Below, piece by piece: positions 16,249 to 50,212 of a DNA stretch of 50,223 nt. The DNA comes from Pseudobdellovibrionaceae bacterium (GTDB lineage Bacteria; Bdellovibrionota; Bdellovibrionia; Bdellovibrionales; UBA1609). Under the pieces are notes generated by a model. That model had not been told where the DNA came from. It searched no databases and saw only the letters and a list, made by a program, of their open reading frames with translations. The position numbers and the translations under genes were made by a program. Each line of letters opens with the position of its first letter. The first letter of the stretch is position 1. Location of the stretch: contig JABJQG010000039.1 of the NCBI GenBank assembly GCA_018663505.1, positions 1 to 50,223 on the forward strand, read 5' to 3'.

Positions 16249-17799
16249 CTAAAAAAGCCCCTTTTTAGGTAGGGTCACCTTTAGAGTGTTATGATCCCAG
16301 TCTTTAAGAATGCTTTTCTTTGCAACGGGTTGTTTGAGCATTATTTCTTCGCGAAATGTTTGGAAGTTGTTTGAACTCACTTTTCGTTCACCTTCATTGT
16401 ATTTAACTTTGTGTTCTCTGGCACCAGAAACAATGACTCGGTCATCTTTAACAATGACCTTTACATTGTCTTTTTCATGTTCAGGAATGTTCACTTCTAA
16501 TTTGTAAAAATTGGGTTCATCGATTAATTTGGCACTAACGCCATGCACTTGGTAAAAAGGGTCATCCTTTCTTTGGAAATCAACATTTTCCTGGTCAAGT
16601 TGTTTGGATTTCTCTTTTTGAGCAGCAAGTATAAAACGATCTCTTTGAGAAATTAAAGATTGATTTTGAACTTTCTGATTTGCACTGAAACTTTTTAGGT
16701 ATTCTTTGTTTTGATTAGCCAAGTTAGATCTATATATTTTATCACGCTTTACTGACTCTTTTTGATAATCATCAAAGTGTTTTTGTTTTCCACCCTCGTT
16801 GGCTTTTCTAAGTTCATCAATTTCTTTTTTGTGTGCTGTTTCTGTATCACGTATTTCTTTGGTATTTTTTTTCTGTAAAACATCTAATTGCCGGTCTCCC
16901 TCCTGCTTCGTGTGTTTAATTTGCGAGGAGTATTCTTTTTGAATGAGTTCAGTATTTTTAATCCCTTTTTCTCTTTCTCTTAATTGCACATCTTGATTTT
17001 GCTCTTTGAGTTGTTGCATTTGGAAATTTGATTCAGAATGAATTTTTGCTTTTTCATTATGTACTTTATTTTTTAAGTCACTTATGGCGGCACTACTGTT
17101 TTTTTGTTCAGTTTCGTACATTTGATGGCTAGTTGATTTTTGTTGTTGTAACCGTGCCATGGACTCTTTTTGTTGTTTATTATAAGTCTTAGAAAATGCT
17201 GTTTTTTGTTCATTTATAGTCTTTTTATTTGTTGAGTTATGATCTTTGACCTCTTGTTGTGAATGAACCTTTATCTCTCGAAGTTGGTTATTTTCTTTAT
17301 GTTGAATGTCTTGTAATAACTGAGCACTATTTTTTTGTATATTTTTTCTTTGCTCAATTTCCTGTTTCATAATTTTTCTTGTGGTATTTTTGGCTTTTTC
17401 ACGTTCAGATGTCTCTTGAATCTGAACCTGCTGAATTTTATCAGAGAGACGAGATTCTTTAGACTTATAATTTCGCTCTAGATTATTAATCCTTTGTTCC
17501 CCATCATTTGAAATATGAGAGAAGGTACGTTGGTTTGAGAGCTTTTTATTGTAAATTTTTTGTTCATTCTGTTTACTTAGTGCTGCGATACGCTCTTCAT
17601 AGTTTTTTTGAATATGATTTACTGCAGACTGGCCTTCATTTCGAGATTTAATGCGTTTATCATCATATTTTTTTCTTATATTTTGCACGTCGTTATCGCC
17701 AGATTTAATAATCGCATCACGTTTATTTTTATATTTGGTTTTTAAATCCAGTAGCTTCTGAGAGTTTTCTCGAGCCTGGTTGTTAATAGCGTCACTCAT
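16249..17799 (-). CDS. Long coiled-coil protein with C-terminal Hsp20/alpha-crystallin domain
   Basis: A 516-residue protein. Residues 1-405 are almost continuous heptad-type helix, extremely rich in Lys, Glu, Gln, Asn and Ser and nearly free of Pro and Gly: a long coiled coil. Residues about 412-516 form an alpha-crystallin domain: FYKLEVNIPEHEKDNVKVIV, then DDRVIVSGARE, a loop, FREEIMLKQPV and LKVTLPKKG, matching the beta-strand order of small heat-shock proteins. The C-terminal I-x-I tail of canonical sHsps is missing, so assembly is probably driven by the coiled coil. It could be a cytoplasmic scaffold or filament with chaperone-type clients. A hairpin overlaps its stop codon. Confidence 0.8.
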   Translation of the reverse strand: MSDAINNQARENSQKLLDLKTKYKNKRDAIIKSGDNDVQNIRKKYDDKRIKSRNEGQSAVNHIQKNYEERIAALSKQNEQKIYNKKLSNQRTFSHISNDGEQRINNLERNYKSKESRLSDKIQQVQIQETSEREKAKNTTRKIMKQEIEQRKNIQKNSAQLLQDIQHKENNQLREIKVHSQQEVKDHNSTNKKTINEQKTAFSKTYNKQQKESMARLQQQKSTSHQMYETEQKNSSAAISDLKNKVHNEKAKIHSESNFQMQQLKEQNQDVQLREREKGIKNTELIQKEYSSQIKHTKQEGDRQLDVLQKKNTKEIRDTETAHKKEIDELRKANEGGKQKHFDDYQKESVKRDKIYRSNLANQNKEYLKSFSANQKVQNQSLISQRDRFILAAQKEKSKQLDQENVDFQRKDDPFYQVHGVSAKLIDEPNFYKLEVNIPEHEKDNVKVIVKDDRVIVSGAREHKVKYNEGERKVSSNNFQTFREEIMLKQPVAKKSILKDWDHNTLKVTLPKKGLF

Positions 17800-45869: not shown

Positions 45870-46185
45870 GCTGGAAATTTGTTCAATTTTGGGAAAACTT
45901 TAGCTTTCTAAATACAAAAAATATATCAGCCAAATATTTTTTCCTTGTGTATAATTCGCTTAAACCATCTATAGTTCTTAGTTTAACTAACTAACTAATT
46001 AAGCAAGTAAGTATTCACATAACACACTTGAATTCAGCCCATAACTGCTTTACCCTTTTAATTAGCAGTGACAATTTTTTTAGATCTCCCCACAGTACTT
46101 TATTTCACCAAGGCAAATGGATAGGATTTATTATATAATGTTATTATAAATGTTAATTGGTAATGAATATAGTTATGATAGTTTT

Positions 46186-47094
46186 ATGAGATGTGTAGCA
46201 ATATTACTAATTTTTTTATCATCGCCAAGTTTAATGGCCGCCCAAGACTTCGCAATTAGTGCTATGGCCCACATTAACGGAGCCTTGATGGCGAGCCCTC
46301 TTTTACCACGCTTGTTTGCTAAAAAAAAACAAAGTGAAATCCAAATTCGTCCTATTATGTTTGAGGCATCTAACGAGGAGAGTAGGGGCTTTGATCCTAA
46401 AATTGTGGATTATAGTGGTTCTGGTGGCGCAGTATTCTATTATAAAAGATTAGGGAGCTCCTTTGGCTACTTTGCTCAACTTTCAGGTAATTCTATTTCT
46501 GGCAACTTTACTGGTCCAGGATCTGACCCTTCAGATGCTCAATATACTATTTATGTGAATGATGTGAAGTCATCCATGCTTCAAGCTAGTTTAGGAATGT
46601 CAGTGAATTTGTTGAAGTTTTCAAACTTCGAACTTCAGTTCCTTGCTGCACCATCCTTTTCTCAAACTCAACTAGAGCAAACAGTGGTTCAAAATGACTT
46701 CACTAGTCCTGATGATTACGATTTAAGTATGAATGTAGGGGCTATGAGCTACTATGCTGGTGTACAGATGGGTATTAAGATGGCTGGATTTGTATTAAAC
46801 CCTTATTATATAATAACTGACCTTGTGGATGAAAAGGATCGTTGTCAGTCATTTAGTACTGTTGTGAGAACCTCAGGAAATCTCTTTGATATTGGGTCTG
46901 TAAGTTGTAGGGACCAGGGTGGTAATTTATTAAAACAAATTGAGTTTAATACAGCTTTGCAGGCCGTGGGCTTTAATTTAATTTTCCCATTTTTTGGTAT
47001 GGGATTTAATATATTTTCTGAAGTTGGTGAAATTCCATTTTTTGAAGCGGTAGAAGTGAATATGTACAGCCTTAGTTTTAGTTTTAATATCTAA
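46186..47094 (+). CDS. Outer-membrane-associated beta-rich protein
   Basis: A 302-residue protein. I prefer the ATG at 46186, where the signal peptide begins (RCVAILLIFLSSPSLMAA), over the one at 46150; neither has a strong Shine-Dalgarno. The mature chain has repeated Gly/aromatic strands (FYYKRLGSSFGYFAQLSG, YYAGVQMGIKMAGFVLN), ending YSLSFSFNI with aromatic/aliphatic alternation, consistent with a barrel embedded in the outer membrane. Two cysteines (RCQS, SCRD) may form a loop disulfide. The family is not identified. The 316 bp before it contain only a short TAAC-type tandem (about 45985-45998). Confidence 0.72.
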   Translation: MRCVAILLIFLSSPSLMAAQDFAISAMAHINGALMASPLLPRLFAKKKQSEIQIRPIMFEASNEESRGFDPKIVDYSGSGGAVFYYKRLGSSFGYFAQLSGNSISGNFTGPGSDPSDAQYTIYVNDVKSSMLQASLGMSVNLLKFSNFELQFLAAPSFSQTQLEQTVVQNDFTSPDDYDLSMNVGAMSYYAGVQMGIKMAGFVLNPYYIITDLVDEKDRCQSFSTVVRTSGNLFDIGSVSCRDQGGNLLKQIEFNTALQAVGFNLIFPFFGMGFNIFSEVGEIPFFEAVEVNMYSLSFSFNI

Positions 47095-47300
47095 GCTCTC
47101 TAAATGTTATAAATAACAATTATATAATGTTAAAGCTGTAGCTATGTACCTCATTGAAACACATTTGTGTAGTTTTGAAGCGACTTCAATAAATACGCTA
47201 TTTCAAGCTGTTTGACTTGTGAAGTTTTCCTCACATTTGTTGATTTCACTAAACTTTTTCCAATACTACACCGAAAAATTAATTAAGCGGGGAGCGTTTA

Positions 47301-50081
47301 ATGAAAAATATTTTTAAAATTGTACTTGGTTTAATATTAATGAGTTTAATGAGCGCATGCGGTGATACCAGTGACTCTATTCAGGGGCAAAAACCATCTG
47401 GTGATACATCGGATACCGTTTCTGAAAAATTGACATTAAGTAGTAGTAACGCCAGTAACTTTGATATTCCTGAAAATTCCAGTGCTTTATTTATTTTTAT
47501 GCTTTCTGGGACAACTACAGTGGACACAAAAATTGATTGGGCTATTTATCCAGATGGAGGTGGTAGTGCCATGTTAGATTTTCTTTCTGTTGCTGGAACA
47601 ATTACTATTCCTGCCGGGGAACAATCTGTGACTTTTTCACTACCCATTGATGATGACTCTGATTATGAGGGTAATGAAAGCTTTAAGTGGATTTATGTTG
47701 GGGTGAGTGATCATGTGGAGGTGTCTTCAAATGAATTTACATTTACCTTGATTGATAATGAAGTTGCACCTGGCCCACCAGTAAGCTTTGATATTGCTCC
47801 AGCAAATTTTGATGAAGATGCTGAATCAATAATTTCTCTAAATTATTCCGATGCTGATAGTGATATTGCCACAGCCTGTACTATTTCTGGTTTGAGTAAT
47901 ATTAGTATATCAACTCCTTGTAGTTGCGATGGTACGAGTAATTCAAATGCATGTTCAGTGGGAGTAACAGGAGTTGCAAATCATAATGGAGCTGCAGGTT
48001 TTAGTTATACCGTCACTGCAAATGCAGAAGAATCAGCATCTGCCAATGCCGTTTTAGCCATAGACAATGTGGATGATATTCCTGTGGCAAACGCATTAAC
48101 ACCCGATGCTTTTGATGAAGATACCGAGTCTATTATAACTTTAGGTTATACAGATATTGATACAGATTTAGCAACGGCTTGTGCAATTCCGAGCTTTCCA
48201 AATTTGAGTGTTTCAACACCTTGTAGCTGTAACGGTAGTGGAGAATGTACAGTTGGAGTAAAAGGTATCTCAAATTTTAGTGGGGCCGCAAGTTTTAGTT
48301 ATACAGTAACAGCAAATGGTGCCCCCTCTGCTGCGGCTACTGCAAGTTTTACTATTAATGCCGTTGATGATAAACCTATTGCAATAGCTGTTACAGCACC
48401 AGCGTTTGATGAAGGTGTGGAATCTATAATTTCTTTGGATTATACAGATGCTGAAAATCATACTGCCACAGCATGTGCCATAAGTGACAATACAGATGTA
48501 ACTGTATCCACAGCTTGTGACTGTACTGCTCCAGGAGTCTGTACAGTTGGTGTAACTGGTAATGGGGATTTTAATGGTGTCACAAGTTTTAATTTTACAG
48601 TGACGGCGAACACTTTAATTTCAGATGCAGCTGTGGCTAGTTTAACAGTAACAGCTATTGACGATAAACCTGTAGCAAGTCCAATTACTCCAGCATCTTT
48701 TAATGAGGACAGTGAATCAATTCTAACATTGAGTTATTCTGATATTGAAAATGATTTAGCAACAGCATGTACAATAGTTTTAAATGACCCATCGAACATT
48801 TCTGTATCCACAGCATGTAGTTGTGACGTTAGTGGTGACTGTACAGTTGGGGTTACTGGGGTTAGTAATTATAGTGGAGCAGAGAGTTTTAACTACACTG
48901 TTACTGCTAATGGACAAACCTCGGCAGCAGTATTAGCCTCATTAACAATTGATGCGGTAAACGATGCTCCAAGTTTAGCCACAAATTTAGGTTTATCCTC
49001 CAGCGTGGGTGAAATTGTAGTTTTAACAACCACAGAGCTTAATGCCACGGATTCGGATGATGCCAATAGTAATATTACCTTTGAATTAAAGACGGCTCCA
49101 GTAAAAGGAGATTTAAAATTAAGTGGTGCAGTTTTAAGTTCAGGAGGATTGTTTACCCAGAGTGATTTAGATAATAGTCTTGTTACTTATGTACATACTG
49201 CTGGTACTGATGTGGATGACAGTTTCCAAATTTCTGTTCGAGATGATGATTCCGTGTACGCTGTTGGCGCAACGGATGCTTCACCAGCTACAGTGGATGT
49301 TGTAGTATCTAACTGTGTCTCTGGATCAGTGACATATACTGCTGATGGATCTTTTGATGTGGATGCCACAGCACCAGGTTGTGCAAATATTGTGATAAAA
49401 GCCTGGGGTGGTGGAGCTGGTGGTGGTTATAAAGGAGGAAGTGCTGCAGGCCTAGGTGGTGGAGGCGGTTACGCTGAAAAAGCTATGAGCATTTCTGCCG
49501 GACAAGTTTACACAATAGCAGTAGGAATGGGTGGACAAGGTGGAGCCTGTGGTGCAGCTGCTGGAGCCGGAGGATTCTCTGGTGGAGCTGGAGGTTTAAA
49601 AGAGGCTAATGGTTCAGCTGGTGCTGATGATGCGGGTGGACCCAATGGTGGCGCTGGAGGTAGTGGTGTTAATGGCACAAATGGTGGGCAAGGTGGTTAT
49701 GGTGGCGGCGGTGGCGGCGGTGCTGCAGAGGATGGAATGTTAGGTGGTGCTGGTGGCGGCGCAAGTACGTTTTTTAACGGTATTACAAAATTAGTTGTTG
49801 CCGGCGGTGGTGGTGGCGGTGGAGCTGGTGAAGCTGGAGGCGGCGGGGCTGGAGGCGCGGCTTGTGCTATAAATGGTTCGGATGCACTATCTAACGGAGA
49901 TTCTCTAGGAGGAGCTGGCGGAGGTGGCGGTGGTTGTTTTGGTGACACAGTAACATCCGGAAGTGGATCTGTAGAAGGGAATAGTGCAAATAGTGGAGGA
50001 GCAGGAGCTGGTGGAAATAATTCTGGATCTTGCCCTGCTAGTAATGGGACTGATGGGAAACTAATTGTAGAGTATAATTAA
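47301..50081 (+). CDS. Multidomain surface lipoprotein with glycine-rich adhesin-like tip
   Basis: A 926-residue lipoprotein, lipidated at Cys20 (LMSAC), with GGGGAG before the ATG. Residues about 45-150 look like a Calx-beta domain (ENSSALFIFMLSG, TITIPAGEQSVTFSLPIDDD). Residues about 155-550 hold four repeats of roughly 100 residues, each with a FDED/FDEG/FNED opening, ATAC, STxCxC and a CxVGV strand (four cysteines per repeat, probably disulfide-bonded), then FSYTVTAN or FNFTVTAN. A cadherin-like/CSPG-type domain follows (about 555-670). Residues about 672-926 are a glycine-rich domain (VIKAWGGGAGGG, QVYTIAVGMGG, many GGAGG runs) like those at phage tail-fibre tips. Its probable role is an adhesive rod, possibly in prey contact. 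Confidence 0.82.
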   Translation: MKNIFKIVLGLILMSLMSACGDTSDSIQGQKPSGDTSDTVSEKLTLSSSNASNFDIPENSSALFIFMLSGTTTVDTKIDWAIYPDGGGSAMLDFLSVAGTITIPAGEQSVTFSLPIDDDSDYEGNESFKWIYVGVSDHVEVSSNEFTFTLIDNEVAPGPPVSFDIAPANFDEDAESIISLNYSDADSDIATACTISGLSNISISTPCSCDGTSNSNACSVGVTGVANHNGAAGFSYTVTANAEESASANAVLAIDNVDDIPVANALTPDAFDEDTESIITLGYTDIDTDLATACAIPSFPNLSVSTPCSCNGSGECTVGVKGISNFSGAASFSYTVTANGAPSAAATASFTINAVDDKPIAIAVTAPAFDEGVESIISLDYTDAENHTATACAISDNTDVTVSTACDCTAPGVCTVGVTGNGDFNGVTSFNFTVTANTLISDAAVASLTVTAIDDKPVASPITPASFNEDSESILTLSYSDIENDLATACTIVLNDPSNISVSTACSCDVSGDCTVGVTGVSNYSGAESFNYTVTANGQTSAAVLASLTIDAVNDAPSLATNLGLSSSVGEIVVLTTTELNATDSDDANSNITFELKTAPVKGDLKLSGAVLSSGGLFTQSDLDNSLVTYVHTAGTDVDDSFQISVRDDDSVYAVGATDASPATVDVVVSNCVSGSVTYTADGSFDVDATAPGCANIVIKAWGGGAGGGYKGGSAAGLGGGGGYAEKAMSISAGQVYTIAVGMGGQGGACGAAAGAGGFSGGAGGLKEANGSAGADDAGGPNGGAGGSGVNGTNGGQGGYGGGGGGGAAEDGMLGGAGGGASTFFNGITKLVVAGGGGGGGAGEAGGGGAGGAACAINGSDALSNGDSLGGAGGGGGGCFGDTVTSGSGSVEGNSANSGGAGAGGNNSGSCPASNGTDGKLIVEYN

Positions 50082-50123: not shown

Positions 50124-50212
50124 GTGGGCTCCCATTGGCACCTTTCCATCCATGGGAGATCGGGCCTATGGCGGCCCGAGCCCACCAATTCCCCCACGTC
50201 GTGTGGGGGAAT
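50124..50212 (-). repeat. Structured interspersed repeat, inverted complete copy
   Basis: Minus-strand copy of the 9830 repeat. The hairpin ATTCCCCCAC/GTGGGGGAAT (50188-50212) has a C-G pair where the other copy has T-A. P1 GTGGGCT/AGCCCAC (50124-50130, 50179-50185), P2 TCGGGCC/GGCCCGA (50160-50179) and P3 CTCCCAT/ATGGGAG (50129-50158) all form. It lies 43 bp downstream of the adhesin-like gene. Confidence 0.75.

Follow-up and report, generated by a model that had tools for sequence, protein, structure and literature searches.

A lipid-anchored cadherin-like rod with a phage-fibre-type glycine-rich tip, a candidate adhesin of a Bdellovibrionota bacterium

Introduction

In T-even-like phages, such as S16, T2 and PP01, gene 38 follows gene 37, and its product gp38 is a glycine-rich receptor-binding tip. 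A glycine-rich (TG) domain is also found in the animal receptor kinases ALK and LTK, and that of ALK binds secreted peptide ligands. Among bacteria, GhpA of Aureispira (PDB 9FLY, 9FLP, 9FLW) is a surface rod of Ig-like domains which serves in predation. For gp38 of PP01 the receptor-binding domain was described as a polyglycine sandwich with recognition loops, and its contact with OmpC was reported from cross-linking of the loops and from mutation (PMC12892980). The tail fibre gp24 of cyanophage Pam3 (PDB 7YPX, 7YFW) carries at its far end a TNF-like plus glycine-rich module, in which 49 of 125 residues are glycine and which was assigned to host-receptor recognition (PMC9608196). By what means Bdellovibrio-like bacteria recognise their many kinds of prey is largely an open question. 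MAT fibres, proposed in 2024 as one answer to it, are predator-lineage fibres of Bdellovibrio bacteriovorus with interchangeable adhesive tips, some of them TNF-like; strain HD100 has 13 S74 members, and the S74-ending fibre class was reported on the surface of this species (PMC10769870).

Here we describe a gene of a Pseudobdellovibrionaceae bacterium (assembly GCA_018663505.1; 3.78 Mb, 72 contigs). The window, that is the whole stretch of DNA analysed, comprises positions 1 to 50,223 of contig JABJQG010000039.1.

Results

An earlier note, made from the sequence alone, had proposed a lipid-anchored rod at 47301-50081, and we recovered a lipobox with cysteine 20, a stalk of repeats and a tip in this open reading frame, whose end lies 142 bases before the end of the contig. 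Its features are:

47289..47294, forward strand: Shine-Dalgarno-like GGGGAG, 6 bases 5' of the ATG, from sequence
47301..50081, forward strand: whole gene, an open reading frame with ATG start encoding a lipoprotein of 926 amino acids
47301..47360, forward strand: lipoprotein signal peptide, residues 1-20, lipobox L-M-S-A-C20, from sequence; the paralogue has FISAC at the equivalent position
47430..47768, forward strand: Calx-beta-like domain, about residues 44-156, by a Pfam match and by relatives; pLDDT below 50
47790..48092, forward strand: four-cysteine cadherin/Ig-like repeat 1; Pfam Big_9 and Cadherin_5 match across the repeat region
48093..48386, forward strand: four-cysteine repeat 2; best stretch of Cadherin_5 at residues 258-353
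48387..48680, forward strand: four-cysteine repeat 3, by sequence comparison of the repeats
48681..48980, forward strand: four-cysteine repeat 4; best stretch of Big_9 at residues 454-544
48969..49247, forward strand: Cadherin_3 domain, residues 557-649 (Pfam E 1.4e-16, 60.8 bits against a cut-off of 25.5)
49311..50078, forward strand: glycine-rich tip (TNF-like plus glycine-rich module), residues 671-926, by two models, VIA and relatives in 34 of 369 genomes

The signal peptide reads ...LILMSLMSAC-GD, with LMSAC as residues 16-20, and that of the paralogue ...FISAC-GG; both have the lipobox and the +1 cysteine of bacterial lipoproteins, as read directly rather than by SignalP. A scan for promoters and terminators gave nothing above shuffled sequences. 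A perfect hairpin, ATTCCCCCACGTCGTGTGGGGGAAT, lies at window positions 50188-50212, about 107 bases past the stop codon and 11 bases from the contig end. The gene is under constraint: measured against the paralogue, dN/dS comes to 0.15 for the tip and 0.15-0.30 for the other parts, synonymous changes being close to saturation. A prophage origin was rejected, since the remainder of the window consists of chromosomal housekeeping genes (SecDF-, queuosine- and PutA-like open reading frames, identified by eye). The upstream open reading frame 46150-47094 was also considered as a dedicated partner and discarded, as it has no Pfam match and no counterpart beside the paralogue; no dedicated exporter or partner is thus linked to the gene. 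Elsewhere in the window, positions 16249-17799 encode a charged, coiled-coil-like protein of 516 amino acids, whose last 100 residues look by eye like Hsp20/alpha-crystallin.

The domains named in the earlier note for the stalk were largely corroborated. The Calx-beta match of the window protein is itself weak (E 0.0089, 16.5 bits against a Pfam cut-off of 27), but relatives of this N-terminal stretch pass Calx-beta with E-values of 7.8e-16, 8e-8 and 1e-6, so that Calx-beta-like is a fair description; most of residues 12-158, this region included, was modelled with low confidence in the full-length model. The four repeats start with F-[DN]-E at residues 170, 271, 369 and 467, and carry their cysteines at 193/207/209/218, 294/308/310/316, 392/406/408/414 and 490/506/508/514. 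All four cysteines are kept in 16 of 16 repeats (four of four in the window protein and twelve of twelve in the paralogue), which upholds the conserved set, although such repeats are not rare in the phylum: the repeat profile matches 105 of the 369 genomes of the phylum, and most of the retrieved relatives of the repeat have the four-cysteine spacing. The model places C1 and C2 on adjacent strands of a single hairpin, with C3 and C4 on either side of the turn that follows (around the cysteines of repeat 1 the strands are 190-199, 201-209 and 217-224), and from this strand register disulfides C1-C2 and C3-C4 are the likely pairing. The cadherin-like domain expected after the repeats is the Cadherin_3 domain listed above. 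Big_9, Cadherin_5 and Cadherin_3 all score above their Pfam cut-offs, and the model for tandem-95 repeat proteins (NF012211) gives 84.8 bits, under its cut-off of 90. Furthermore, residues 161-671 of the model are similar to cadherin ectodomains in tandem, with VIA Z-scores reaching 10.1. The rmsd is large, which points to a chain of similar domains and not to one rigid match; GhpA of Aureispira is among the stalk fold matches listed by Foldseek.

The tip contains 95 glycines in 256 residues (37%). A first model of the tip, built with 8 sequences, had a pLDDT of 66 and a pTM of 0.72, and in the full-length model, whose alignment included 12 tips, the tip reached a pLDDT of about 88. The fold-search scores come from the first model, which matched the Pam3 tail fibre (VIA Z 14.3, 2.2 Å over 157 residues), the tail-tip protein of mycobacteriophage Bxb1 (Z 13.8) and ALK/LTK (Z 9.9-11.2); the next unrelated chain scored 3.6. 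With Z-scores from 14.3 to 9.9 over 151-169 residues, the predicted tip has the TG fold across most of the domain. This agrees with the structured glycine-rich tip of phage-fibre type that had been proposed, the prediction being neither of the two outcomes, disordered or globular, named beforehand as speaking against it. Because the tip matches Pam3, ALK and LTK, we infer that it would hold packed polyglycine helices. Among viral models, 174 matched the tip at E below 0.001, tail fibres among them, including the putative short tail fibre of S-RSM4 and tail fibre proteins of Goslar and Mano. All 12 tips have cysteines 672, 694, 855 and 879, and nothing in the tip is better conserved than the glycine runs. 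Compared with the paralogue, the tips differ at 5% of positions in the glycine runs, 43% in the strands and 37% in the turns; strands and turns vary alike, and the idea that variation is limited to the tip loops was not borne out.

At the level of sequence, searches of Pfam, PHROG, NCBIfam and PDB sequences (the last by phmmer and by profile search) gave no direct match to the window tip, and PF21722 (Gly_rich_2) has none in the window protein. Two relatives of the tip fall just under the PF21722 cut-off of 24.3 bits (G088 with 21.5, G008 with 20.2), and profile comparison of the tip with PF21722-positive domains gave a probability of 97.3 and a score of 78 over 73 columns, far above the controls (no more than 16.6 over 30 column shuffles; 20 with the profile reversed), which argues for homology. 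Moreover, phrog_863, 'tail fiber assembly', is matched by three of eight tips of the subfamily (best E 3.3e-9). The links of the tip to phage families run through relatives and structure. Searching phage records with the tip by tblastn returned no match, for which low-complexity filtering is a likely reason, and matching the tip alignment to the genome collection gave 589 pattern matches, of which tblastn confirmed 0, probably because the same filtering strips glycine-rich sequence. Glycine-rich domains in general occur in many phyla, archaea included.

Relatives of the tip were found on several kinds of carrier, its subfamily profile matching 34 of the 369 genomes of the phylum. The paralogue, on contig C60 of the same genome, has 1701 amino acids and twelve repeats, and its ends are 61% and 72% identical to the window protein. 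The design also occurs in genomes of another class, with five repeats or with one: G167, from another part of the phylum, encodes a lipoprotein signal, five repeats, Cadherin_3 and the tip, and G218 a lipoprotein of 467 residues that has a single repeat and the tip. In G008, a genome of the same family as that of the window (L031:1334-4213), a T2SS-G-like pseudopilin N-terminus is followed by Calx-beta, a beta-helix and a glycine-rich tip, a fusion that is possibly a pilus-tip adhesin. In three genomes a secreted tip protein of 340-362 amino acids is encoded 2-96 bases downstream of an S74-ending fibre:

L030:3364-7999, fibre and tip pair of G088
L032:2-5143, fibre and tip pair of G092
L128:4873-6749, fibre and tip pair of G116

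The fibre of the G116 pair holds the sole S74 match of that genome. S74 was found neither in the window protein nor anywhere in its genome; three genomes tested of genus g38 (family f8) have 14-16 S74 matches each, against the 13 members reported for HD100, and it is partly on this count that we place the genome of the window in the order Bdellovibrionales.

We also noted pairs of a fibre and a glycine-rich protein that are devoid of S74 (L184:1919-4472 in G155, and L047:1071-4375), whose fibres end in a similar C-terminal domain (...GYSYRFYPTN... and ...GYSTKFLPAN...). The genome of the window contains two broken tip copies (C17:138-566, L127, and C18:2139-2453, L126), of which one has lost its 5' part and the other follows the beginning of a different lipoprotein in the wrong reading frame. 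In G098 (L134:2964-5969), a MAT-like fibre of 1001 amino acids has a PF21722 glycine-rich C-terminus (phrog_863, E 5e-32), a tip type which lies outside the subfamily of the window tip; the MAT paper mentions neither glycine nor such a tip (PMC10769870). Swapping of tips among carriers was considered and set aside as neither datable nor provable, since most forks of the tip tree are unresolved.

Discussion

From fold, architecture and genomic company, the window gene probably functions as an adhesin. We favour, with reasonable though not high confidence, an outer-membrane lipoprotein adhesin with a lipid anchor, a disulfide-capable cadherin/Ig-like stalk and a TNF-like plus glycine-rich tip. 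The lipid would fix the N-terminus to the outer membrane, and the stalk, in which two disulfides (C1-C2 and C3-C4) would stiffen each repeat, would keep the tip away from the cell. In the tip, the glycine runs could pack side by side into a rigid core, leaving the turns between them to contact a receptor, and reach might be set by the number of repeats, four here, twelve in the paralogue and five and one in the relatives. Most simply, the receptor would be a surface molecule of another bacterium, which in this lineage could be prey, and it is plausible that the window protein grabs prey. Since ALK has the same fold, the fold by itself does not name the ligand.

A rival reading is an adhesin that binds surfaces, matrix or sister cells instead of prey, in biofilm or aggregation, as many cadherin/Ig-repeat proteins do. 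Calx-beta, Big_9 and cadherin-like repeats are general building blocks of adhesins, just as the wide spread of glycine-rich domains fits a use other than predation, and the genome is no clear guide to lifestyle: the mevalonate pathway was reported as a trait of predators and the riboflavin-synthase pathway for non-predators (PMC4451040), and as this genome encodes both HMG-CoA reductase and riboflavin synthase, its predator markers, read from sequence, are mixed. On the other hand, the best structural matches come from receptor-binding tips of phages, which act on bacterial cells, and the tip stands beside S74-ending fibres, a class reported on the surface of B. bacteriovorus, in three genomes of the order; we regard a non-prey adhesin as a serious but rather unlikely alternative.

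An outer-membrane lipoprotein can also face the periplasm, and the lipoprotein signal alone is compatible with a structural role there, with the tip docking to an envelope partner; an outer-membrane-protein-like open reading frame lies 206 bases upstream. That neighbour is not common to the paralogue, however, and tips elsewhere sit on fibres and on a pseudopilin-like protein. With a cadherin-like domain being about 4 nm long, the twelve-repeat paralogue would measure about 55-60 nm, which exceeds the width of the periplasm, and we consider this placement improbable. As for the glycine-rich end being low-complexity sequence with no defined fold, its glycine content, the lack of a direct family match and the modest confidence of the first model would all suit it, but the second model, the cysteines and glycine runs conserved across the tips, the low dN/dS and a profile match that greatly outscores its shuffled and reversed controls make it very hard to credit.

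Returning to the outer-membrane adhesin, the spread of its tip is compatible with a wider proposal, which we offer tentatively and regard as a possibility rather than a probability: the phage-type glycine-rich module could be a common tip moved among unrelated Bdellovibrionota carriers (lipid-anchored disulfide rods with 1-12 repeats, a T2SS-G-like pseudopilin, and two-gene fibre and tip pairs resembling phage gp37-gp38), recognising prey surfaces. If true, predator and phage would share one recognition device. A tip of a second type, found on several carriers and with a phage receptor-binding fold, provides a testable set of candidate adhesins. Related tips occur on rods with 1, 4, 5 and 12 repeats, a natural series with which the importance of reach for contact could be tested directly. 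Glycine-rich tips are known, as are cadherin-like rods and MAT fibres; the arrangement seen here is undescribed, and in the literature on Bdellovibrio glycine-rich adhesins, covered by title and abstract with few subscription papers, we found no account of this tip type in predatory bacteria.

Among known systems, Pam3 gp24 ends in the same kind of module with a similar share of glycine, but it forms a trimer, in a phage fibre that has a chaperone of its own; the window module instead sits at the end of a lipid-anchored cadherin-like rod, and it contains cysteines that are invariant. Like gp38, the window protein has a glycine-rich tip; gp38 is a separate protein, whereas the window tip is fused to its stalk, and the gp38-like arrangement, a separate tip gene following an S74-ending fibre gene, is instead seen in G088, G092 and G116. 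S16 gp38 (6F45, a three-layer polyglycine sandwich) is not among the matches listed in the tip fold search, which does not exclude a likeness. The TG domain of ALK/LTK belongs to the same fold class, with 19-26% identity over aligned residues, in receptors for secreted peptides, and Gly_rich_2 is related by profile comparison and not by direct score. GhpA is comparable to the window stalk but far larger. Compared with MAT fibres, the window protein lacks S74 and has a lipid anchor and cadherin-like repeats instead; after the signal peptide, where MAT fibres have a beta-rich domain of about 130 residues, what could be read is a linker and the Calx-beta-like region.
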